A stretch of 33,705 nucleotides of DNA from Bacteroidales bacterium Bact_19 (lineage in GTDB: Bacteria; Bacteroidota; Bacteroidia; Bacteroidales; ML635J-15): the NCBI GenBank assembly GCA_001603595.1, contig LUZK01000091.1, positions 1 through 33,705 of the forward strand. The letters are read 5' to 3'. The translations under genes and the position numbers were made by a program. Positions 3,516-17,709 of the stretch are shown here, piece after piece. Numbering within the stretch: the stretch's first letter is position 1; each line of letters starts with the position of its first letter. Under the pieces are notes generated by a model. The model was not told the DNA's origin and searched no databases. It saw only the letters and a program-made list of their open reading frames with translations.

Positions 3516-5342
3516 TTAATCATTTTTTACAACCGCTCCTTCATTCGGGATTAAGAACTTGACCTTCTTTGAAGGCGAAGAAATGAATTCAAGTCCTGTA
3601 TAATTGTACCACAGTTTATCTATTTTTTTTATAATACTGTCTGACATGCAAACAACATTAGGCCATTTTCGAGAAAAACCATCTCTATCGAAATTTTTTC
3701 GCCGGCAATCAATTAAAAGTTTTTCATCAACCATCAAGCAATCATAAGCCGGATCAAAATTATTAAGAATATACCAAAATAATAAAAACGGATCATTTAA
3801 ATCAAAATCTAAATTATCTGATACAATAATTATCGAAAATTCCTCTAATTCACTTTTGTTTAATAAGTAAGAATCTTTTAAGTTCAAGGAATTCTTTTGT
3901 GTCTTAATCAAAGCTAATTTTCCATAGCTGTATAATTTGTTGTTATTTTTTAAAAACAAATTATCAAACTTTGAGTGAATTTCTAACCCCGTAAAATCAA
4001 TTAAAATTTTTCCTCCGTAACTAAAACTGTATGATGCATGTTCTAAAACATCTGCAGGTCCAGCACTAATGAAAATTCTTTGTTTAAGGTCTTTCAGATT
4101 TGCAAAATAAGTAAGTATCAAGGTATCATTATGAATATCAACGTCAGTATCAAAACAACACATCACTTTTGTGAACATCATTTGTCCGGCACCAAGAAGC
4201 GAATTCATTATCTTTATGCTTTGTCCGCGGTAACGAGTTTCTACTTTTAACAGAACAAGATTATGTGCAACCCCGTAGGAAGGTAATCTCATGTCAACTA
4301 ATTCAGGGACAATTGACAATTGAATCGGTTTTAAAAATATTTTTTCTGTGGCTTTCCCTAAATAGTAATCTTCCATTGGAGGAACCCCAACCACAGTCGC
4401 CGGATATACAGCATCATTTCGGTGAGTAATGCACGTAACATTAAAAACAGGATATTTATCTTCCAATGAATAGAATCCGGTATGGTCTCCAAATGGTCCC
4501 TCGATCCTGAATTCTTCTTTGGGATCAATATATCCTTCAATTACAAAATCCGCATTATCGGGTACATATAAATCATTGGTGATACATTTAACAAGTTTCA
4601 CCGGATTGTTCCGTAAAAATCCCGCAAGAATAAATTCATCCAAATTTTCGGGCATTGGAGCAGTCGCACAATAGGTTAAAACAGGATCGCCTCCAAGGAC
4701 CACACTTACAGGCATCAGCTTTCCTGATTTTTTGTATTTTTCAAAATGTGCAGCTCCTCCTTTATGCAAATGCCAATGCATACCCGTTGTGTTCTTGTCA
4801 AACACCTGCATTCTGTACATTCCAATATTCGACATCCCATTATCGGGGTCCCTGCTTATTACTAAAGGCAAAGTAATAAATCTGCCACCATCATAAGGCC
4901 AACATTTTAAAATAGGCAAAGCATTTAAATCAGGACTTTTAATTATTACTTCTTGACATAATCCCCGCCCTGAAGACTTTTTTGGAAGCCATTCCGAAAG
5001 TTTTTTCAATTCTCCCAAAATTGATAACTTTTGGAATATGCCTCTTTCGACATTAATAAACTTTTTAAATAAATTATCTATTCTTAAAGCAGGCTCATCA
5101 AAACTTTTTATTCCCAGTGCTTTTAGTATGCGGAAATCACTGCCGTAATGATTTATCAAAACCGGGAAACGAGTTCCAGTATTTTTAAATAATAATGCTT
5201 TGCCACCTCCTGGCATTTTACTCATTCTATCTGCAAACTCTGTAATCTCTAACTCGGGGTTAACGTATTCTGAAATCTCGATGAGCTCAAAATCCGTTTT
5301 TAATTCTTCAATGAATTTTTGAAGCGAATAATTTTTACTCAT
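3516..5342 (-). CDS. UbiD-family (prenyl-FMN dependent) decarboxylase
   Basis: From the ATG at 5342 this is a 608-residue UbiD-family enzyme, longer than the roughly 490 residues of E. coli UbiD. The length fits the extended form often annotated as menaquinone biosynthesis decarboxylase. Visible landmarks are SNIGMYRMQV around residues 171-180, HWHLHKGGAAH (189-199), and RIEGPFGDHTGFY (279-291). Arg177, Glu281 and Asp286 are the candidate catalytic Arg-Glu-Glu/Asp set. Family members decarboxylate aromatic or unsaturated acids with the UbiX-made prenylated flavin; no ubiX is in this window. The open frame extends 17 codons further upstream, but that stretch lies inside the terminator hairpin at 5347-5382, so the ATG at 5342 is the better start. 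Whether the substrate is a quinone precursor cannot be decided here. Confidence 0.88.
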   Translation of the reverse strand: MSKNYSLQKFIEELKTDFELIEISEYVNPELEITEFADRMSKMPGGGKALLFKNTGTRFPVLINHYGSDFRILKALGIKSFDEPALRIDNLFKKFINVERGIFQKLSILGELKKLSEWLPKKSSGRGLCQEVIIKSPDLNALPILKCWPYDGGRFITLPLVISRDPDNGMSNIGMYRMQVFDKNTTGMHWHLHKGGAAHFEKYKKSGKLMPVSVVLGGDPVLTYCATAPMPENLDEFILAGFLRNNPVKLVKCITNDLYVPDNADFVIEGYIDPKEEFRIEGPFGDHTGFYSLEDKYPVFNVTCITHRNDAVYPATVVGVPPMEDYYLGKATEKIFLKPIQLSIVPELVDMRLPSYGVAHNLVLLKVETRYRGQSIKIMNSLLGAGQMMFTKVMCCFDTDVDIHNDTLILTYFANLKDLKQRIFISAGPADVLEHASYSFSYGGKILIDFTGLEIHSKFDNLFLKNNNKLYSYGKLALIKTQKNSLNLKDSYLLNKSELEEFSIIIVSDNLDFDLNDPFLLFWYILNNFDPAYDCLMVDEKLLIDCRRKNFDRDGFSRKWPNVVCMSDSIIKKIDKLWYNYTGLEFISSPSKKVKFLIPNEGAVVKND

Positions 5343-5346
5343 AAAT

Positions 5347-5382
5347 AAAAAAACTGTCGGATGTAAATTTGACAGTTTTTTT
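5347..5382 (-). terminator. Terminator of the membrane-protein gene at 5414-6061
   Basis: A 12-bp perfect inverted repeat (5347-5358 with 5371-5382, core CTGTC/GACAG) has a 12-nt loop and a T run on either strand. On the minus strand it follows the stop codon at 5414 and precedes the ATG at 5342, so the two genes are probably separate transcripts. Confidence 0.85.
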
Positions 5383-5413
5383 CGTAAAATCAAAATTTTA
5401 TTGGGTGTAATAT

Positions 5414-6061
5414 CTATTTTCTCAAGAAATCAACAACAAGTTTGTAAAGTCCAGCAACAAGATACAAGAAAGCAAGATTGAAAAAAGCTATAATTATGCT
5501 TATGATCAGTAAAGCAAAACCTTGATTAAACAATTGGTTAATGTATTCTTCAAAGTTACTTACCATAAATCCGCTTAAAATTTCCGGTATTTGAATAAAT
5601 GGAATTTTAAAGAAAAACGAAATTGTTGATCCTAACGGAAAAAATGGAATTGCGGCTAACAGTGAGGAGAAAAATCCAATTAATCCAACAGCGAAAGGTA
5701 AAACAGTAAAAATAACTCCGAGAGTTCTTAATACTCCCGGAACAATATCAATCAAATTATCTTTACTTTGCAATACCAGTTTTGATCTTTGGTATAAGGC
5801 TCCAATAATGAATAAATAAGTTAAAACTGAAATAATTAAGCAGATGAAATAAAGAATAATGTGTCTGATTATTGCAAAGGCTTCGAAATCAAAAATTATT
5901 TTGAAATAATCAATTGAAATTGCAATAATAGAGTAAATACCATAAGCAGCAAATAAAATTGACAGACCTAAAAACAAATTTCGAAAATTCTTTCTAAAAA
6001 AACTTTCGGATTCAATAACTTCAATAGGTTTTGAAGTGAAAATAGCTTTTAATTTTTCCAT
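5414..6061 (-). CDS. Small polytopic membrane protein, family not recognised
   Basis: This is a 215-residue protein with about four hydrophobic segments: roughly residues 29-51, 62-90, 108-140 (possibly a broken or re-entrant pair) and 178-206. It has a short charged N-terminus (MEKLKAIFTSKPIEVIESES) and no signal peptide, so it belongs to the inner membrane. The glycine- and proline-containing central segment (GVIFTVLPFAVGLIGFF) is the most distinctive part. I do not recognise a named family and assign no function. It has its own good promoter (6090-6118) and terminator (5347-5382), so it is a single-gene unit. Confidence 0.75.
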   Translation of the reverse strand: MEKLKAIFTSKPIEVIESESFFRKNFRNLFLGLSILFAAYGIYSIIAISIDYFKIIFDFEAFAIIRHIILYFICLIISVLTYLFIIGALYQRSKLVLQSKDNLIDIVPGVLRTLGVIFTVLPFAVGLIGFFSSLLAAIPFFPLGSTISFFFKIPFIQIPEILSGFMVSNFEEYINQLFNQGFALLIISIIIAFFNLAFLYLVAGLYKLVVDFLRK

Positions 6062-6258: not shown

Positions 6259-7661
6259 CAGTAGTGTTCGATAAAACTTTTTAGAAAAGCTGGATTTCCT
6301 TTTAAGGATCTCCCGCTTTCATGTAATTTAGTTTTACAGAACAAAATCACATGACTAAAAGTAAGTACTTTTTCGGACAATCTGTTTTCGGACAGCTGAT
6401 TTCTTTAATTGATTTAGGTAAAATCAATACCATTGCCAGAAAACACATGGCAGATCATTACGTCAAGAAGTTTGACACCTCGGATCACCTGATAAGTATG
6501 CTGTTTTCGACATTCGCTCATTGCACCTCAATGCGTGAAGTAGCCGCATCAATGCTGGGTTTGAAAGGGAAATTTAAACATTTCGGGTTGAAACATATTC
6601 CTTACAGAAGTACATTAAGTGATGCCAACAAGAGAAGAAGCCATTTGGTGTTCCAGGATGTTTATTATTCTTTGCTGAAAGAATATCATCCGATTATCTC
6701 GGACAGCCGACAGTCTTATGCATGGGAAAACAAGTTGGAAATCATCGATTCGAGCACCATATCGTTGTTTAAAGACATTTTGAGCTGCATTGGAAGGAAA
6801 CCAAACACAGGGAAGCGAAAAGGTGGAATTAAAGTGCATACACAAATCAATTTGCAAGGAAAAGTTCCCAAGCTTGTTCGGTTCTCCGCTGCCACAACAC
6901 ACGACAAACAGTTCTTAAAGCATATTCAATTGGAGAAGGGTAAGATTGCTGTATTCGACAAGGGATATAACGATTATAAAACCTTCGATGAGTTCACGGA
7001 GAACGGTGTGTTCTTCGTTACACGCTTAAAATCCAATGCTGCTTATGAATCGGTGAAAGAAAACGATATTCCTTCTTACATTGACAATGGCGTAATCAAA
7101 GATGAAATAATCCGTGTTGAGATAAAAGAGAAAGGAACCTATCTAAAAACCATTGAATTACGAAGAATAGCATACTGGGATGATGAAAATAAACGCTGCT
7201 TTGAGTTTGTAACAAACCTATTGGGCATGAATGCGGGGCACATTGCACTGATTTACAAGAAGCGCTGGCAAATAGAACTCCTGTTTAAACAACTCAAACA
7301 AAACTTTCCACTGAAATTTTTCCTTGGTGACAATGAAAACGCCATCAAAATACAGATCTGGTGTGCGCTAATCGTTAATCTGCTGCTCACCGTAATACAA
7401 AAGAAAATCAAGCGAAAATGGGCGTTTTCCAACCTTGCAAGCTTCTGCCGATTGCATTTGTTCAACTACATTCATTTGATGAAATTCCTTGAAAATCCGG
7501 AGAAAGACTGGCTCAAAGAATACAACGCTCAACTTCAATTGAAATTCAATAGTTCGTAATAAACACAGGAGCTTGCTTTTGAAATGCGCAAACCGACATC
7601 AGTAAAATCAAGGCTTTTAGAAAGCAAAAAGATTAATTTGTATTTTTATCGGACAATAGTG
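6259..7661 (+). mobile_element. IS4-family-type insertion sequence, about 1.4 kb
   Basis: The element is bounded by imperfect terminal inverted repeats. The left end CAGTAGTGTTCGATAAAAC (6259-6277) matches the reverse complement of 7643-7661 (CACTATTGTCCGATAAAAA) at 15 of 19 positions. One transposase gene fills the interior. No convincing target-site duplication is present: the left flank ends ATTCTTATA and the right flank begins GTTAATAAT. This suggests an old insertion or a rearrangement at one end. The interior looks somewhat richer in G+C than its surroundings by eye, consistent with a mobile origin. Confidence 0.85.
6351..7559 (+). CDS. IS4-type DDE transposase (DUF4372 N-terminus)
   Basis: This is a complete-looking transposase of 402 residues. 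The N-terminal part, about residues 1-75 (FFGQSVFGQLISLID, then HMADHYVKKFDTSDHL), has the look of the DUF4372 domain that precedes DDE_Tnp_1 in many Bacteroidota IS4-type elements. Catalytic candidates are the Asp in EIIDSSTISLF, the Asp in IAVFDKGYND, and the Glu in YKKRWQIELLFKQLK. The last fits the IS4 signature Y-(2)-R-(3)-E-(6)-K exactly. There is no internal stop or frameshift, so the enzyme may still be active. The gene starts 92 bases inside the left inverted repeat and ends about 100 bases before the right one. Confidence 0.95.
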   Translation: MTKSKYFFGQSVFGQLISLIDLGKINTIARKHMADHYVKKFDTSDHLISMLFSTFAHCTSMREVAASMLGLKGKFKHFGLKHIPYRSTLSDANKRRSHLVFQDVYYSLLKEYHPIISDSRQSYAWENKLEIIDSSTISLFKDILSCIGRKPNTGKRKGGIKVHTQINLQGKVPKLVRFSAATTHDKQFLKHIQLEKGKIAVFDKGYNDYKTFDEFTENGVFFVTRLKSNAAYESVKENDIPSYIDNGVIKDEIIRVEIKEKGTYLKTIELRRIAYWDDENKRCFEFVTNLLGMNAGHIALIYKKRWQIELLFKQLKQNFPLKFFLGDNENAIKIQIWCALIVNLLLTVIQKKIKRKWAFSNLASFCRLHLFNYIHLMKFLENPEKDWLKEYNAQLQLKFNSS

Positions 7662-7943: not shown

Positions 7944-10394
7944 TCACTTTTTTAAAAATCCGTAATCATAAACTTTTGGTTCTATTTTGTCAGCAAGTTG
8001 TCTGAGCTTTTCTCTCAAGTCGCCAATTAAGCTCATATAGGTTTCGTCTGAACTTTTGTTATTCATTTTTCCTTTTTCATCTCTGCCTTGAAAATATTCT
8101 TTTATGTCATAAAGCGAAGCGTTTACATTTACATTGGGTTTGCTGTGGTAATATTTCCAAAGTTCACGTCCTGCATCAAAAACAGCTTGGGCTTCTGTTG
8201 AAAATACAAGAGGGGAACGATTATAAGGCACTTCGGGTTCGAACAAAATAGATAAGGTATATGATGTTTTGTGTGGGGGTTTGAGTTTGCCTTTAATAAA
8301 ATCTGTCATAAAGTTGCTTTCAAATTTTTCTCTGGCATTGACTTCTTTTTCTGTAAATGGAATCCAATGGTTTGTTCCGTGTTTTGATGATATACGGTTT
8401 TGCCCATGAAAAAGCGTAAAAGCCAAACAGTCGTTCTGAAATTCTTTATCTGTTTCCCAGCCATCGTTAGGGTGGAGAAATTGGTCGCGGTCGTTTAGCC
8501 AAGTAGGTTCAATACAGTGGCGGACAGCAAAATAGATAGCTATTTGAATTAAATTAGAAAAACCTATTTTCCAGCAGTATCTTTCTTGTTGCTTTGACAG
8601 AATGGTTAATTGATTATTATGCTGAAAGTCACTTGGTGAACTAACTAATAGTCCTATTTCATCATTTGTTTCTAATTTGTATTTCACAATCCACTTATTT
8701 AAACTTTCAGGCAAGTTTCCGTAGAATTTTTTGGTGCCGATAAATTCGCCATCATGATTAAAAACATCGGCTTCTATTTCTTCGAATTTTTCTTTTTTAT
8801 CACCATTCCATACGAAAAAACCTATTGGGAATTGTCCTTTTACATTATCAAAGGTATTAGCAGGAACTACAAAAAGTTTTTCGAGTTTTGGTTTAAAAAC
8901 TTCTCGGAAGTCTGAAAAATTAGCCGCTTGCAAATTTTTCAACTTTGAAAAATTTGCAATTTTACAATTAGGGATTTCACAATAAATTCTAATTAAGAAT
9001 TGGGTAAAAAGTTCGTTACTTGCTTTGCTTATAATAGTTTTGTATTTGAGGTAAGTTTTATTGTCAGTAGCAGTTTTGGGTTTATTGGTGCCGGTTCCAG
9101 CAACTGTTCGGGCTGTAGTAGCTTCAGCATAAGGCGGATTTATATAAACTACTAATTTTTGTCTTTTTTCAGGATCAGTAATAATATTGTATAAACTATC
9201 GGGAAGTTTGCCGCCTTTAGATTTAGGGATAAAATCGTCATTTAGAAAATCAAACTGAAATACATGCTCGTCAAGCAAATTTGCTCCGTTTTTTATACGG
9301 TCGTGCATCACCTCTACATCTTGCTTATCGAGTGTTGAAGCATAAATGTTGTATTTATTGACAAGTCCGTTGAGCAGATTCCCTGTTCCAGCAGCACAAT
9401 CCCAAACATAATATTCGTCTTGCCAATCTTCGCCGAATACATCGGACAAATATTTTTGAGAAAGTTCTACCCAAATTTGCGGTGTAAAAAAACTTCCTTT
9501 TCGTTCTCTTATATCTTGCGGAACCAATAAATCTCTACGTTCAATAATATAATCCCAGTATTCTTCTTTGGGTGGTCGTTCGTATTTATTCCAAAATTGA
9601 GTATGAGCAACTTGCCCATCTGTAAAATCGGTTCTTTTACTGCTGAACATTCCTGCTTCATCTATTTTTCTGTCGAGTTCGTAATGGTCGTGTTTTAATA
9701 GAACAAAAAGTTTTTCTTTTAAAGTATTGTTTTCGTACGATAGCAAATCGGCAAGGTAAAAGTCGCCGTCAATAATTCCTGATTTTTTTGCAACTTCCCA
9801 ATTTACGGCAATGGAAGGTTTGACAATTTGAAGCCACTTATTATAAATTGCAACAAAATTATTTTTGTCGATTTTAATTTTAGTTATGCCAAATTTATCA
9901 ACAATAAAATTACTTTTTATGAATTTCTTTAGTTCCTTGTCATCTTTCAAAAAATTAAAAAGCAGTGCTTTGTTATCAATAATTGTTTGTACTTTTTCGT
10001 AAATAATTTTAAATTCTCTGGTTGTATGGTTTGAAGGTGTAACATTCCAATTGAAGTCGTTTATGTAAAAAACTTCGTGAATGTCATTGTAAGGGATAAA
10101 AGCGATTTTTTCACCGTCAAATGCACCTAAAAAAGCTGGAGGTAAATAGCTGTCAAAAGTTCTTGCTTTACCAATGGTCAATATTAGTTGAACGATAGAA
10201 TTATAAATGTCGGACGAACCTTTTTTTGCTTCTGCCCAAAGAAGCGATTCTTGTTCAAAGAGTTCTTTGTGGCTTTGGTGCATACTAACGCAAAAGTCGA
10301 CGTTACCAATTATTTTTGTGCAGTCGTATATCCAAAAGTAATCTTGTGCTACTTTGTTTTTAAGTTCTTCTTCTCTTATGTTTTTATACTTCAT
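7944..10394 (-). CDS. Type IIG restriction-modification enzyme (Eco57I-like N6-adenine methyltransferase with N-terminal nuclease)
   Basis: This 816-residue protein combines nuclease and methyltransferase. The N-terminus carries a PD-(D/E)xK-like set: Asp33, then Glu55-Ala56-Lys57 in LLWAEAKKG, 21 residues later. The methyltransferase core has KGSFFTP at 299-305 (motif X), DCAAGTGNLL at 332-341 (motif I, SAM binding) and NPPY at 419-422 (motif IV), which marks an adenine-N6 or cytosine-N4 amino-methyltransferase. The conserved block NVKGQFPIGFFVWN follows. The region beyond about residue 560 is the likely target-recognition part. No separate specificity or endonuclease gene is nearby, so it is a one-gene system. 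The likely role is defence against foreign DNA. It lies between two near-identical repeats and beside an insertion sequence, which suggests horizontal acquisition. The recognition site cannot be read from sequence. Confidence 0.88.
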   Translation of the reverse strand: MKYKNIREEELKNKVAQDYFWIYDCTKIIGNVDFCVSMHQSHKELFEQESLLWAEAKKGSSDIYNSIVQLILTIGKARTFDSYLPPAFLGAFDGEKIAFIPYNDIHEVFYINDFNWNVTPSNHTTREFKIIYEKVQTIIDNKALLFNFLKDDKELKKFIKSNFIVDKFGITKIKIDKNNFVAIYNKWLQIVKPSIAVNWEVAKKSGIIDGDFYLADLLSYENNTLKEKLFVLLKHDHYELDRKIDEAGMFSSKRTDFTDGQVAHTQFWNKYERPPKEEYWDYIIERRDLLVPQDIRERKGSFFTPQIWVELSQKYLSDVFGEDWQDEYYVWDCAAGTGNLLNGLVNKYNIYASTLDKQDVEVMHDRIKNGANLLDEHVFQFDFLNDDFIPKSKGGKLPDSLYNIITDPEKRQKLVVYINPPYAEATTARTVAGTGTNKPKTATDNKTYLKYKTIISKASNELFTQFLIRIYCEIPNCKIANFSKLKNLQAANFSDFREVFKPKLEKLFVVPANTFDNVKGQFPIGFFVWNGDKKEKFEEIEADVFNHDGEFIGTKKFYGNLPESLNKWIVKYKLETNDEIGLLVSSPSDFQHNNQLTILSKQQERYCWKIGFSNLIQIAIYFAVRHCIEPTWLNDRDQFLHPNDGWETDKEFQNDCLAFTLFHGQNRISSKHGTNHWIPFTEKEVNAREKFESNFMTDFIKGKLKPPHKTSYTLSILFEPEVPYNRSPLVFSTEAQAVFDAGRELWKYYHSKPNVNVNASLYDIKEYFQGRDEKGKMNNKSSDETYMSLIGDLREKLRQLADKIEPKVYDYGFLKK
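8928..8959. repeat. 32-bp near-perfect palindrome inside the type IIG gene
   Basis: Two 15-bp arms (8928-8942, TTGCAAATTTTTCAA, and 8945-8959, its exact reverse complement) flank a 2-nt spacer. It encodes part of the ANFSKL...AANFSDF stretch between methyltransferase motif IV and the recognition part of the enzyme. Confidence 0.85.
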
Positions 10395-13697: not shown

Positions 13698-15419
13698 TTA
13701 CTCTTTGATAAATTTAAAAGAGTAGGTTAAATCTGCTGATTTTAATTGCAATAAATAAAAACCTTTTTGTAATCCTCCAATTAGGATATAACTCGAATTT
13801 TCCGAAACTGTCCCTTCTAATAAAATTTTACCTGTTAAATCAATTATCTTGTAGCATAAAAAAAGAGGTTCTAAACTTTCGATACGAAGATAATCAGTTG
13901 CAGGATTTGGATATATTTTTAATGTTGAGTTTTGATGGTAATTAGTAATGGATGTGATATTATTGGAATTTATTGAAAACCAATTTACTGCCTGATTTTC
14001 AGTACTATTTAAAATTATAAATAATTCATCGGAAACCAAACCGGGCTTTTCTACGCTAATATAATAAGAACCGTAGGCTAAATTTTTAAACTCAAAATAT
14101 CCACTTCCATCGGTTAATCTAAAATCCATAACGTCTTTATTTGAATTTTTTAGAAACACAACAGTGTTGGCTGCCATTCCTTCTTCAAAAACTGTTTGGC
14201 GAAACCAGTTCCTTATAAATATACTTTCTTCAAAGCTCGCAGTATCAATATATCTAACAAAGCCGCATATTTTCCCGTTGTTTATTCCAACTTCATAATA
14301 GGGATATAAAAAGCTCTGAAAAACGGTATCTGAATAAAGATTTATTAATGAAGCGTCCTGCCAGAAAACATCATTACTTTGATAAACAGGAGAATATTTT
14401 GGAAAATAGATAGTATCAATATCAAAATACGGGATTAAATGTGCGAGATATTGATTGTTTCTGTCAAGATTTTCAAATTTATACAAGCCATCTATAATTT
14501 CGCTTTGAGCAATAGCCTTAAAATATTCTCCCGATCTTTGGTATAATACTGCCATGCCTGATGGAAGCAAAGTAGAACCGGCTTTTACAATTCCATATAA
14601 ATTAGAGATATTTGGTACAACCTGATTAACTATTATATTTTTACAAATTGTTGAGGAGCAGTTATAATGAGTAAGTATCGTTAAGCATACTTCGTAATTT
14701 CCTGGATCACGATAAATATGTAGAGGATTGCGGGCATAAGAATAATTCCCGTCTCCGAAATCCCAGTAAAAATAATCTTCTTCGCCGTGAGAGTTATTTA
14801 CAAATCTATATAATCCGAAAATTTGCTGAAAACTCAAAGAATCAATACTGAAATCTGCATTGCAATTATTGTTGTATCCTATCGTTACACAATCAGTTCC
14901 ATAGCAGTTATCTCCATTTGTGAGAGTTACACAATATGTCCCCGGCGATAGGTTCTGAATTTCAGCACCAGTTTGTCCGTTACTCCAGTATGCAAAATAG
15001 CAACAAGGGATATTCGAATATCCATAAACATAAGCTCTTCCATTATTATAATTAGGTGCTGTTGCATTTTGTGTCGAAAAATAAATATCTAAATTACAAT
15101 CCGGTGATGAAGCGGGAATGCCTACTAAAATTTCCTTTTCAACATAATCAAAGCAACCTTCTTCTGTGAATATGCTAAGCCTTACAAGATATCGTCCGGG
15201 ATTAGAATATAAATTAGATGGGTGTTCTTGATAACTTGTATTTCCATCTCCAAAATCCCAGTGTTGATAAATCTGTCCTTCGTCGGAAATCTGAGATTGA
15301 TTATAGAATTGTATATACAGAGGCGAACTTTCCTGATAAATAAAATTAGCCTCGCATCCTGCAATTAAAGGATTTAATCCAAAAAATACAATTGCCAATA
15401 TCAAAAAAAAATGCCTCAA
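13698..15419 (-). CDS. T9SS-secreted PKD-domain protein
   Basis: This is a 573-residue exported protein. Residues 1-20 are a signal peptide. Two PKD domains are recognisable by WDFGDGN at 54-60 and 219-225, each followed by a typical PG-Y-V strand (NPGRYLVRLSI, DPGNYEVCLTI). Between them is a Cys-rich SprB-like repeat (YWSNGQTGAEI...PGTYCVTLTNG). Residues about 270-480 hold two beta-sandwich regions of the carboxypeptidase-regulatory type (YGIVKAG; GYFEFKNLAYGSYYISV). The last 75 or so residues are a type A T9SS sorting domain (LKIYPNPATDYLRI ... GFYLLQL ... FKFIKE). The protein should be secreted across the outer membrane and attached at or released from the surface. It begins 8 bases after the anti-sigma-like gene, so it is the third gene of that unit and may be its output. 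The ligand is unknown. Confidence 0.88.
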   Translation of the reverse strand: MRHFFLILAIVFFGLNPLIAGCEANFIYQESSPLYIQFYNQSQISDEGQIYQHWDFGDGNTSYQEHPSNLYSNPGRYLVRLSIFTEEGCFDYVEKEILVGIPASSPDCNLDIYFSTQNATAPNYNNGRAYVYGYSNIPCCYFAYWSNGQTGAEIQNLSPGTYCVTLTNGDNCYGTDCVTIGYNNNCNADFSIDSLSFQQIFGLYRFVNNSHGEEDYFYWDFGDGNYSYARNPLHIYRDPGNYEVCLTILTHYNCSSTICKNIIVNQVVPNISNLYGIVKAGSTLLPSGMAVLYQRSGEYFKAIAQSEIIDGLYKFENLDRNNQYLAHLIPYFDIDTIYFPKYSPVYQSNDVFWQDASLINLYSDTVFQSFLYPYYEVGINNGKICGFVRYIDTASFEESIFIRNWFRQTVFEEGMAANTVVFLKNSNKDVMDFRLTDGSGYFEFKNLAYGSYYISVEKPGLVSDELFIILNSTENQAVNWFSINSNNITSITNYHQNSTLKIYPNPATDYLRIESLEPLFLCYKIIDLTGKILLEGTVSENSSYILIGGLQKGFYLLQLKSADLTYSFKFIKE

Positions 15420-15427
15420 AATACGAA

Positions 15428-17023
15428 CTACAATTTATATGATATTCCTGTTCTCAGTCCATATCTCATTGAACGCAAATCAAGGGCATAATTTCCATTA
15501 AAACTATTAATAAAATTGTCTCTAAAATATGGCTCTACATAAATTCCAAATTTTTTTGTAAACGAGTAGTTTAAGTTCAATGAGAAGTAATAATCTAAAT
15601 TAAATTCTCTATATGGAATTTCAGCTATTGGCAAAATTTCGTCTGAATATAAATCATAAAAATTTCCTTTCTTTCCTGTTAACAATCCTCCAATAATTCC
15701 CGCTTTGGGAATAATTTCCAGTTTACCTGTTTTAAATGAATATCCAAAAACAACTGGTATCTCAATGTACGACATACTGTTTTCTGCAGAATAATTCAAA
15801 TTTTTTAAAACGGTATCCTTTATAGCTATCGAAATGGAATCTTTAAAAACAAAATTTGTTGAATCAACATGCGGAATGTAAACAATGTTACCATTCAAAT
15901 ATTCATCAAGATCCAAAAACCAAACAGTATCGTAAATCCAAACTGAATTATCGAAATATTGAAATTCGGTGATGGTATTTATCTCTGTTTCTACTTTTTC
16001 AAAATTTATTTTTTGGCGATTGGTGAAATATGAGATTCCACTATTTATATAAAATCGTCTGTAAAAATAATCAATTCCAAGCCCAAAACCAAATGAATTA
16101 TTGTCTTTTAAATTTTCTGATAATGTTTTAAATTCGTTTTGAAGTTCGGGATTATTTAATTTAAATCTGTATTTATTGTTAATGTAATAATCATAAAAGA
16201 TACTAAACCTTACAAAAGATTTATCCTCCACAATTGGAACTCCACCAAAGTCATAACCAATAGTATCTCTTTTTATTTCATAGTTAACAATAAAGTTGTT
16301 TAATAAACTGTCGTTTGAAATTTTTAACTCTGGATATCTCAAATATAATGGTTTATTTAGGTTGAGGAAATGTGGAATTTTAGAATATGTTTGTATTTCT
16401 CCGGTTTGAGTATTAGCGTTGTATTTGGTTATAAATAAGTTATTATTAATTTGATTTTCAACAATTTCCGAAATTTCATTATTTGTGTTTTTTGTAAAAA
16501 CTATAGTAGTAATATGAATGGGTGATGTTTTTGAGTTTTCTCCTATTAAAGTAATTTTATTTATGGATACAGAATTGTCATTTTCTTTATTGTCAGAAGA
16601 AATAGTAATTTGTGTATCTTCAGTTAAGTTATTTAATGCAGGGATGTCATTATTTTGAATTTGAGAATTGTCATTTATGAGAATTTCTCTCCCGCCATCG
16701 AAGTTAAAAAATTTGAATTCTGTATTGTTAAAAAATATTATTGAACCAACTATTGTAGTGATAATAAGTCCGGCGTAATAGATGTTAAAACTGAAAGGAG
16801 AAAAATGTAAAAATTTATTGAACCAAAGAGCAGTGGCAATTCTTCTCCAAACATGATCAGCCACACTCATTTTAAAGCCTCTGAACTTTTCCTGATAAAG
16901 ATGCTCGAGTCTCATACCGGAAATTTGATTTTCAATTCCGTCCCACACCTTATCAGAAGGTTCCAGGCTGAAATCTTTGAATTCATCCCTGAAAATGTCT
17001 TCTATTTTTCCTTTCTTACTCAT
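15428..17023 (-). CDS. Dual-membrane-spanning anti-sigma-like protein: cytoplasmic repeat, one TM, C-terminal outer-membrane barrel
   Basis: From the ATG at 17023 this is a 531-residue protein with an unusual layout. Residues 8-31 and 38-62 are two copies of a motif of the form IxDxFRxxFKDF-x6-D-x-VWDxI, seen in Bacteroidota proteins partnered with ECF sigma factors. Residues about 80-98 are the only hydrophobic helix (YYAGLIITTIVGSIIFF); with no signal peptide, the N-terminus should be cytoplasmic. Residues about 110-225 are rich in Asn, Ser and Thr and look disordered. Residues about 268-531 alternate like a beta-barrel and end RYGLRTGISYKL. This matches the Dma (dual membrane-spanning anti-sigma) layout known in Bacteroides. 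The start is set by an 8-base overlap (ATGAGTAA) with the sigma gene stop, so the two are translationally coupled. A TTG three codons upstream is less likely. Alternative: an unrelated barrel with an N-terminal anchor. Confidence 0.75.
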   Translation of the reverse strand: MSKKGKIEDIFRDEFKDFSLEPSDKVWDGIENQISGMRLEHLYQEKFRGFKMSVADHVWRRIATALWFNKFLHFSPFSFNIYYAGLIITTIVGSIIFFNNTEFKFFNFDGGREILINDNSQIQNNDIPALNNLTEDTQITISSDNKENDNSVSINKITLIGENSKTSPIHITTIVFTKNTNNEISEIVENQINNNLFITKYNANTQTGEIQTYSKIPHFLNLNKPLYLRYPELKISNDSLLNNFIVNYEIKRDTIGYDFGGVPIVEDKSFVRFSIFYDYYINNKYRFKLNNPELQNEFKTLSENLKDNNSFGFGLGIDYFYRRFYINSGISYFTNRQKINFEKVETEINTITEFQYFDNSVWIYDTVWFLDLDEYLNGNIVYIPHVDSTNFVFKDSISIAIKDTVLKNLNYSAENSMSYIEIPVVFGYSFKTGKLEIIPKAGIIGGLLTGKKGNFYDLYSDEILPIAEIPYREFNLDYYFSLNLNYSFTKKFGIYVEPYFRDNFINSFNGNYALDLRSMRYGLRTGISYKL

Positions 17024-17573
17024 TTCGAGCAATTTTTTTCAATTCAGTTAATTTTTCTTGCAACAAAGCTCTGGCTCTACTATATTGCGATTTAGAAGTT
17101 CCAACGCTGATATTAAGCATTTCTGCAATTTCGCGATGTTTAAATCCTTCAATCGCATATAGGTTAAAAATAATTTTAAATCCCGGCGGAAGCATATTTA
17201 TGCTTCTCAGTAGCTCTTCTCTGGTAAATTCTTCATTGTCAATTTCGTAGTCCCCGTCTAAAATTTGAGTTTCCTGAATACTGTCAAAATCTTTATGAAA
17301 ATCATGCTTCAATGAATTTCTGTAATGACTTATAGCAGTATTCACCAGAATTTTTTTCATCCAACCTTCAAAAGAACCTGTTTCACTATATTGATCAATT
17401 CTTGTAAGAATTTTCACAAATGCTTCCTGCAGGATATCTTCCGCATCTTCACGCGACTTACTATACCTGTATGCAATCCCCATAAAAAGTGAGGCATACC
17501 GTTCATAAAGGCATCTTTGTGCCCTTTTATCCATTTTTCGGCAGCCCGCAATTATTTCGTTCAAATCCTGCAT
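17016..17573 (-). CDS. ECF RNA polymerase sigma factor
   Basis: This is a 185-residue sigma-70 family factor of the extracytoplasmic-function type. Region 2 occupies about residues 18-88 (LYERYASLFMGIAYRYSKSR, then EDAEDILQEAFVKIL and FEGWMKKILVNTAISHYR). Region 4 is at about 122-178 (LPPGFKIIFNLYAIEGFKH, REIAEMLNISVGTSKSQYSR, a helix-turn-helix). Regions 1 and 3 are absent, as usual. It directs transcription of a specific regulon. The next gene overlaps its stop codon by 8 bases and encodes the likely anti-sigma partner. Many such factors control their own operon, but I found no clear promoter motif upstream to support that here. Confidence 0.95.
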   Translation of the reverse strand: MQDLNEIIAGCRKMDKRAQRCLYERYASLFMGIAYRYSKSREDAEDILQEAFVKILTRIDQYSETGSFEGWMKKILVNTAISHYRNSLKHDFHKDFDSIQETQILDGDYEIDNEEFTREELLRSINMLPPGFKIIFNLYAIEGFKHREIAEMLNISVGTSKSQYSRARALLQEKLTELKKIARNE

Positions 17574-17709
17574 TCAGGCATCACAGTTTTAGACTTAATA
17601 ATATAAAAAAAGGTTGCAATTGAATTTTATCCCTAAATATTTTTCAAATTGCCAAAATAATATATTTCATTTAAAGATGGAAGTTTGTGAAAATATTTTT
17701 ATAAAAAAA

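Follow-up and report, generated by a model that had tools for sequence, protein, structure and literature searches.

How a single protein chain might hold a sigma factor in the cytoplasm and sense at the outer membrane is the question raised by a gene pair of Bacteroidales bacterium Bact_19, located in a stretch of 33,705 nucleotides (contig LUZK01000091.1, our contig C9, hereafter the window) of a 3.07 Mb genome that is 98.75% complete. A preliminary description of this DNA, made from its letters, had paired an extracytoplasmic function (ECF) sigma factor gene with an overlapping downstream gene for a one-chain anti-sigma factor, and had likened the latter to the dual membrane-spanning anti-sigma factors (Dma) of Bacteroides. 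Our analysis upholds the pairing and, at sequence level, the likeness: the window pair would include a Dma-type anti-sigma factor in a two-unit form of a wider modular class, and it probably works as an autoregulated trans-envelope switch, in which the first of two cytoplasmic units clamps the sigma factor and a change in an outer-membrane barrel releases it. What is new here is the two-unit form, the likely grip of the unit on sigma, and the modular class around the unit. The features needed for the argument are the following.

17592..17617, minus strand: predicted ECF promoter of the operon, GCAACC (-35, 17612-17617), 17-nt spacer, GTC (-10, 17592-17594)
17016..17573, minus strand: ECF sigma factor, 185 residues (Pfam Sigma70_r2 1.5e-17, Sigma70_r4_2 2.9e-15; alignment A2); residues named in the coupling analysis are R166 and Y162 in sigma4 and 31, 32, 45 and 49 in sigma2
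17016..17023, minus strand: stop/start overlap of the sigma and anti-sigma genes, ATGAGTAA, read from the sequence
15428..17023, minus strand: putative Dma-type anti-sigma factor, 531 residues
16916..17008, minus strand: anti-sigma unit 1, residues about 6-36, canonical, with E8 (unit position 7) and W27
16826..16912, minus strand: anti-sigma unit 2, residues about 38-66, diverged copy, with W59
16727..16789, minus strand: transmembrane (TM) helix, residues about 79-99, starting with a conserved juxtamembrane FNIYY (79-83); from hydropathy, conservation and a motif census
16238..16717, minus strand: Asn-rich, poorly conserved tether, residues about 103-262, with a conserved DTIGYDFGGVPI stretch at its end (253-264)
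15431..16237, minus strand: C-terminal outer-membrane beta-barrel-type head, residues about 263-531; from profile-profile comparison and Pfam matches of relatives
13698..15419, minus strand: third operon gene, 573-residue PKD-domain protein with a type IX secretion system (T9SS) type-A sorting tail (Pfam PKD_4 9.3e-22, Por_Secre_tail 3e-12)

The two genes are closely joined, the sigma stop codon lying within ATGAGTAA at 17016-17023 and the same letters starting the gene of the 531-residue protein. Such an overlap is found in 192 of 280 related pairs, an upper estimate as the most upstream start codon was used. The two N-terminal motifs, earlier placed at residues 8-31 and 38-62, were recovered at about 6-36 and 38-66. 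Profile A5 was built from 24 N-termini, each spanning a lone unit or, in two-copy proteins, copy 1 with the beginning of copy 2 at the tail of the row. Run against the whole genome, it recovers the second unit of the window protein with an E-value of 1.8e-4, aligned to profile positions 8-38, and residues 38-75 score 25.6 bits against it, compared with 9.6 for the best of 20,000 shuffles. An hhalign comparison of copy 1 with copy 2 in alignment A1 (14 rows) gave a probability of 97 (E 8.2e-11) and four control region pairs gave 0 to 0.3; W27 and W59 are invariant in all 14 rows, window included. By these measures the two units are homologous and the duplication is real. A single hydrophobic maximum in the chain (1.75 over residues 79-99) gives the one TM helix shared with the Dma family, previously put at about 80-98. 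It is preceded by charged residues 1-80 (13 K+R, 12 D+E), so that no N-terminal signal peptide is present as judged by hydropathy; a cleavable one had been named beforehand as an argument against the proposed topology. The tether, about 160 residues with a mean hydropathy of -0.52, corresponds to the predicted long disordered segment of a Dma protein. With 17% Asn and 7% Ser over residues 105-262 it is Asn-rich rather than Asn/Ser-rich, so that the earlier wording stands for asparagine and falls for serine, and it is poorly conserved (mean identity among homologues of 17% over residues 105-245, against 31-47% in other regions). The DTxGxDxxGxPI stretch before the barrel is conserved. The nearest relative of the whole protein (G025) is 82% identical, and matches to all or part of the protein occur in 14 of the 31 genomes of the family. 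The anti-sigma factor has no Pfam match up to an E-value of 10 and only one NCBIfam match, below cut-off, to an unrelated sporulation protein. A sequence search of the PDB returned seven matches for the unit profile (E 0.34 to 2.1), none of them a sigma or anti-sigma factor, and none for the full profile.

The C-terminal head was assigned to the outer-membrane barrel type by homology, as the preliminary description had proposed. Its own Pfam match lies below cut-off (OMP_b-brl_2, E 0.0056) and is missing from the whole-protein scan, but the head is homologous to those of 120 relatives (profile-profile probability 99.9), one of which, L003, belongs to the window's own family. A Pfam scan of 125 C-termini at E 0.01 (window included; the complete proteins of the then-current set, of all head types) gave 68 matches to OMP_b-brl_2, 41 to OMP_b-brl, 20 to CHU_C and 2 to the type-A tail, one protein being able to match both OMP_b-brl models. 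The barrel of the window family showed no homology in hhalign (probability 7.9) to the four barrels of its own genome that pass the Pfam cut-off. Barrel-only relatives of the head, with a signal-peptide-like start, occur in genomes of the same genus (L020, L022, L024, L025 and L026), and in L022, L025 and L026 they adjoin secreted-looking repeat proteins (by eye).

Mean-field covariation, computed on 193 and then on 272 sigma-unit pairs (effective number of the latter 222), suggests that one 35-residue unit touches sigma4, through D/E at position 7 with R/K166, and, less surely, sigma2. With 272 pairs, 12 sigma-unit couplings exceed z 5; between sigma and the TM region, which has the same ancestry as the unit, no coupling does. 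Unit position 7 couples to sigma4 positions 166 and 162, joined by 138 when all 272 pairs are used; unit positions 17, 22, 28 and 29 couple to positions 32, 45, 31 and 49 of sigma2. At the leading pair (unit position 7 with sigma position 166, S166-U7), D pairs mostly with R166 and E more often with K166: D-R 100, E-K 45, E-R 36 and D-K 4 among the 193 pairs. When D/E swaps that are independent on the tree are counted (about 18), R/K166 changes in step with 7.9 of them and against 0 (272 pairs; 8.0 to 0 with 193), which places it first of the 185 sigma columns with 193 pairs and third with 272; position 162 gives 5.7 to 0 with 193 pairs and 5.0 to 0 with 272. These counts use all branches and are less strict than a test limited to supported branches, which had only 3 pairs and no power; a nearest-neighbour D/E table, which contained both agreeing and non-agreeing pairs, was not used as a test. 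With 193 pairs S166-U7 reaches 12.5, above the maximum of 9.6 over all couplings in 53 permutations of partners within clades.

The unit is widespread in this part of the phylum. An A5 match (E 0.001) was found in 206 of 294 genomes of the order, and three genomes of the order that lack one do match at a looser cut-off. Among 392 genomes of the phylum, 92 have a match: 91 of 105 in the same class and 1 of 287 others, where the class, Bacteroidia, was inferred and the split assumes that unlisted rows are sorted by kinship as the listed ones are. (An earlier whole-length profile was insensitive at this scale, with 29 of 392, and the N-terminal profile was used in its place.) The final set comprises 352 loci, some overlapping, with 287 distinct unit proteins, and an ECF sigma gene lies directly upstream of 280 of these. 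The 280 include 247 proteins with a single unit, 29 with two, 1 with three by profile (L029; four by eye), 2 with four and 1 with six; since loci were chosen by score, these shares are not population frequencies. The duplicated motif, which the preliminary description took for a variation on the known layout, thus reaches further than the window, from 1 to 6 copies. A sigma tree (FastTree) requires at least 6 changes in copy number and at least 19 in head class. The arrays, which precede one TM helix, are found at L140 893-2902 (six units) and at L138 300-2093 (minus strand) and L139 982-2711 (four each); as in L029, their linkers are short and each unit keeps the acidic position 7.

What the second copy does can be approached with pair scores trained on single-unit proteins. 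Of 25 two-copy proteins, 21 show a better fit to their own sigma for copy 1 than for copy 2. Of the unit, copy 2 retains P21, W26 and hydrophobic residues at positions 29 and 33 (88-100%), but in tight two-copy proteins its position 8 is acidic in 0%, compared with 84% in copy 1, and position 7 is often missing too; in the window, copy 2 still has the acidic position 7 and the invariant W59. The arrays behave differently from one another. Against the single adjacent sigma, seven of the eight units of L138 and L139 score 3.2-3.5 and one scores 1.35, the three units of L029 score alike, and in L140 five units score 0.2-1.4 and the membrane-proximal one 3.9. These patterns suggest that duplication may have been put to two uses, a braced clamp as in the window and a string of more equal units as in L138 and L139.

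Several observations weigh against the proposed clamp and switch. Permuting partners within clades (53 times for 193 pairs, 74 times for 272) shows that shared ancestry accounts for some of the covariation. With 193 pairs, the number of couplings above z 5, which is 5, lies within the null (mean 4.7, maximum 8). With 272 pairs, the global null maximum of 10.4 tops every real coupling, and only five of the 14 strongest exceed the null maximum of the same pair: S166-U7 (9.7 against 9.2) and S32-U17 (7.3 against 7.2), both narrowly, and S16-U34 (4.4 against 3.7), S9-U9 (4.3 against 2.4) and S35-U19 (4.1 against 3.8). S119-U9 ties (5.0 and 5.0), S162-U7, S138-U7, S45-U22, S49-U28/29 and others do not rise above their own null, and S9-U9 lies off the two-sided arrangement. 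That arrangement itself, seen in 11 of the top 12 couplings, is inside the null (mean 8.7, maximum 12). Some of the low copy 2 scores, and part of its missing position 7, stem from truncated local alignment, and both the barrel and the sigma complex are predictions made from sequence. Taken together, the covariation data support the predicted sigma4 contact better than the sigma2 contact.

The outer ends of the relatives vary. The 267 complete relatives divide into 180 long proteins (at least 330 residues, no type-B domain), 36 with a CHU_C-like T9SS type-B end and 51 shorter ones; according to the Pfam counts on the 125 C-termini, most, not provably all, of the 180 are barrels. Among the first 24 short proteins, 22 are followed by a gene of more than 200 residues, which matches OMP_b-brl_2 in 12 cases and OMP_b-brl in 1, and as a group the genes next to short proteins resemble the window barrel (hhalign 93.4%, E 2.5e-7). 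An example of this split form is L067, with a sigma factor, a 200-residue inner-membrane-type anti-sigma factor (3986-4588) and a separate gene (4622-5530) with a below-cut-off barrel match; a short anti-sigma factor with a separate, often barrel-type gene is also found at L198-L213 and L215-L217. Other relatives are anchored in the inner membrane and have, in place of a barrel, PKD and a T9SS type-B-like (CHU_C) end (L068 3980-5266, L069 3980-5323, L066 4001-5671). The window's own genome, which has a T9SS as shown by a full-length SprA gene, also carries this form: L071 1-1492 (minus strand), truncated by the locus end, passes the CHU_C cut-off at 6e-8, and L072 234-1478 (minus strand), with a PKD match and no CHU_C match, is T9SS-headed by eye only. 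The NCBIfam type-B model matches L068, L069 and L071 below cut-off and leaves L072 unmatched. T9SS-type and barrel heads show no homology to each other (probability 0.1). An FNIYY-like stretch before or at the TM helix is present in 20 of 24 complete two-copy long proteins and in 3 of 153 one-copy long ones, and among T9SS-headed proteins in 3 of 3 with two copies and 10 of 33 with one, a distribution which links the window type with the T9SS-headed type. A limited search of the open-licence literature found no account of T9SS-headed anti-sigma factors or of tandem anti-sigma units.

Upstream of the operon, the predicted promoter site begins 44 bp before the sigma ATG; it is the sole match within the window, and 100 shuffles gave 0. 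Of the 268 loci with enough sequence ahead of the sigma gene, 77 have the pattern GCAACC-N16/17-GTC there, spaced by 17 in 67 of them, against a shuffled mean of 0.1 and 3 on the opposite strand, and the conservation of the pattern fits autoregulation. A scan of the own genome gave 3 sites, compared with 6 for a reversed control pattern, for which reason the operon itself is the sole target claimed and no wider regulon is proposed; of the extra sites, one lies just after an open reading frame of 477 residues and the other has no open reading frame of at least 80 residues around it. Folding of the leader RNA showed nothing beyond shuffles (z 0.39). In Flavobacterium psychrophilum, an ECF motif with a CGT box is described as driving T9SS genes and one ECF/anti-sigma pair (PMC9723704), which makes a T9SS connection plausible but is no evidence for the window pair. 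Downstream, the gap between the anti-sigma gene and the PKD gene is 8 bp, and the latter, which also has an SdrD_B-like domain, is likely co-transcribed with the pair. Among the 14 family loci L001-L014, L001 being the window itself, 11 have a gene judged by eye to be PKD-type after the anti-sigma gene, with a stop/start overlap in 7, and the PKD protein is possibly the main product of the response. Ahead of the sigma gene on the minus strand are genes resembling rpsP and rimM (by eye). Elsewhere in the window, 7944-10394 (minus strand) encodes an 816-residue protein with no match in Pfam (E 1e-5) or NCBIfam (E 1e-3), and a transposase (DDE_Tnp_1 with DUF4372) at 6351-7559 (plus strand) lies between that gene and a UbiD-type gene region (3516-6061).

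The switch considered probable above builds on features seen in the sequence, namely the gene order, the overlap, the unit duplication, the TM helix, the head homology and the conserved promoter. In the resting state, cytoplasmic unit 1 would clamp the ECF sigma factor: helix 1 would hold the DNA-binding part of sigma4 via Glu8, and the later half of the unit, from F18 to roughly G29, would cover sigma2 regions 2.1/2.2, so that sigma would meet neither RNA polymerase nor promoter. The diverged unit 2 keeps the predicted fold core and has lost the N-terminal contact consensus; it most likely packs against unit 1 or braces it at the membrane, beside FNIYY, rather than binding a second sigma. The chain would then cross the inner membrane once, pass the periplasm as a loose tether and be anchored in the outer membrane by the barrel. 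A change in the barrel, by ligand, assembly state or load, would release sigma, which would transcribe its own operon from GCAACC-N17-GTC and give more sigma, more anti-sigma and more of the predicted T9SS-secreted PKD surface protein. We infer that sigma is inhibited and then released, that the barrel is the sensor, that the third gene shares the transcript, and what unit 2 does.

Three other explanations were weighed. Both units might bind, one chain then holding two sigma molecules, or two different sigmas, as a stoichiometric buffer. The arrays of four and six units with an acidic position 7 in each (L138, L139 and L140; L029 by eye), the about equal fit of seven of the eight L138/L139 units to the adjacent sigma, and the acidic position 7 and W59 kept by copy 2 of the window all speak for such a buffer; we nevertheless consider it unlikely for the window pair, as copy 2 lacks the contact consensus and fits sigma worse in 21 of 25 proteins (partly an effect of local alignment), and as it is the membrane-proximal unit of L140 that fits best, as if one unit binds. 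A braced clamp remains our preferred account of the second copy.

The barrel, for its part, may report outer-membrane assembly instead of a ligand. Stepwise proteolysis frees sigma from RseA in E. coli, and here an uninserted chain could be cut in the tether with a similar outcome. A long tether of low conservation would be a suitable protease substrate, the relatives whose barrel has its own gene show that fusion is not needed, and at least 19 head changes on the sigma tree are what one would expect if the head only reports delivery to the outer membrane or by secretion. On the other hand, no protease site or neighbouring protease gene was seen (none was searched for), and the conserved DTxGxDxxGxPI stretch before the barrel is left without explanation, so that we hold this to be possible but somewhat doubtful. 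It is very improbable, finally, that the N-terminal unit, instead of inhibiting sigma, holds it close to the envelope as a membrane tether or co-activator. Covariation can suggest binding alone, which would suit such a role, but the suggested contacts cover the polymerase-binding and DNA-binding faces, as those of class I anti-sigma domains do, and deletion of dma2 in B. thetaiotaomicron is described as raising expression of its operon (PMC13088901). Inhibition by unit 1 with release through the barrel stays the favored mechanism.

Beyond the window, the unit may be a minimal anti-sigma module, achieving with two helices what takes class I domains four, and a main class of its kind in Bacteroidia, in 1-6 tandem copies with exchangeable ends, of which the T9SS end would couple sigma to the secretion state; we put this forward tentatively, giving it slightly less than an even chance. 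Tight pairs would then be one braced clamp and long arrays perhaps sigma buffers, and the outer end would be a barrel, fused to the chain or encoded by a gene of its own, or else a T9SS sorting domain carried by an anti-sigma factor anchored in the inner membrane. If this is true, a T9SS-headed anti-sigma factor would make transcription depend on how the type IX secretion machine stands, and a direct wire between secretion and transcription is what these relatives predict. In a published survey, only 6% of Bacteroidetes ECF genes had a class I domain beside them, compared with 32% on average, and the control of the others was left open (PMC7406223). Since it occurs in 91 of the 105 genomes sampled from the class, and since 280 of the 287 unit proteins collected have an ECF sigma gene as neighbour, the unit is a concrete candidate for that control, which suggests that it may indicate how many gene switches of this large bacterial group are controlled. 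It also offers residues to mutate, namely E8 of the unit and R166 of sigma.

The closest known system is Dma, whose published layout (PMC13088901) comprises an N-terminal sigma-binding domain, a TM helix, a long disordered tether and a C-terminal barrel. The window pair shares an ECF sigma factor beside a single chain with an N-terminal domain, one TM helix, a long tether and a putative C-terminal barrel, the last by homology, which at sequence level bears out the likeness proposed by the preliminary description. Dma2 lies, as the window pair probably does, in a three-gene operon, of which the third gene is DUF4943 in the Dma case and PKD/T9SS in the window, and in B. thetaiotaomicron the vesicle phenotype is stated to require das2 (PMC13088901); none of the present results ties the window pair to vesiculation. 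The window differs from most of its relatives in having two tandem units, not one, and an FNIYY stretch at the TM helix; no ECF21 model is among the Pfam and NCBIfam matches listed for its sigma factor. In two other families of the order, the unit profile gives weak matches (E 1.9e-6 to 0.07) to single-unit proteins whose genes adjoin ECF sigma genes. Both heads scanned pass the Pfam barrel cut-off, and of the five neighbours scanned four are NigD-like, a gene type tied to Dma1 in print, and the fifth is DUF4840; the single-unit proteins beside NigD-like genes are presumably Dma1 orthologues.

In class I anti-sigma domains (RseA, RsiW, ChrR, RskA), D11 of RseA helix 1 is described as coupling to two sigma4 residues and helix 4 to sigma2.1/2.2 (PMC7406223). 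An acidic helix-1 residue facing sigma4 and a later part facing sigma2.1/2.2 would be shared by the window, the second less surely. Class I domains have four helices, whereas the window unit has about 35 residues and probably two, and the Pfam and NCBIfam family models recognise no four-helix domain in the anti-sigma factor. As the two-sided coupling pattern has been published for class I, the unit can be read as a minimal functional analogue of that domain, with no claim of common descent. Cell-surface signalling of the FecR type (PMC9249621) is comparable in that an outer-membrane barrel controls an ECF sigma factor via an inner-membrane anti-sigma factor. The split relatives are in two pieces as that system is, whereas barrel and anti-sigma factor form one chain in the window, where the barrel is of the small OMP_b-brl type and neither Pfam nor NCBIfam gives a FecR or TonB-dependent transducer domain match in the anti-sigma factor. 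The PorA-PorXY-SigP route of Porphyromonas gingivalis (PMC7712824) resembles the T9SS-headed relatives, since there too an ECF sigma factor receives input from a protein that has a T9SS C-terminal domain; PorA is described as acting via a two-component system, whereas the relatives carry the C-terminal domain on the anti-sigma chain itself.

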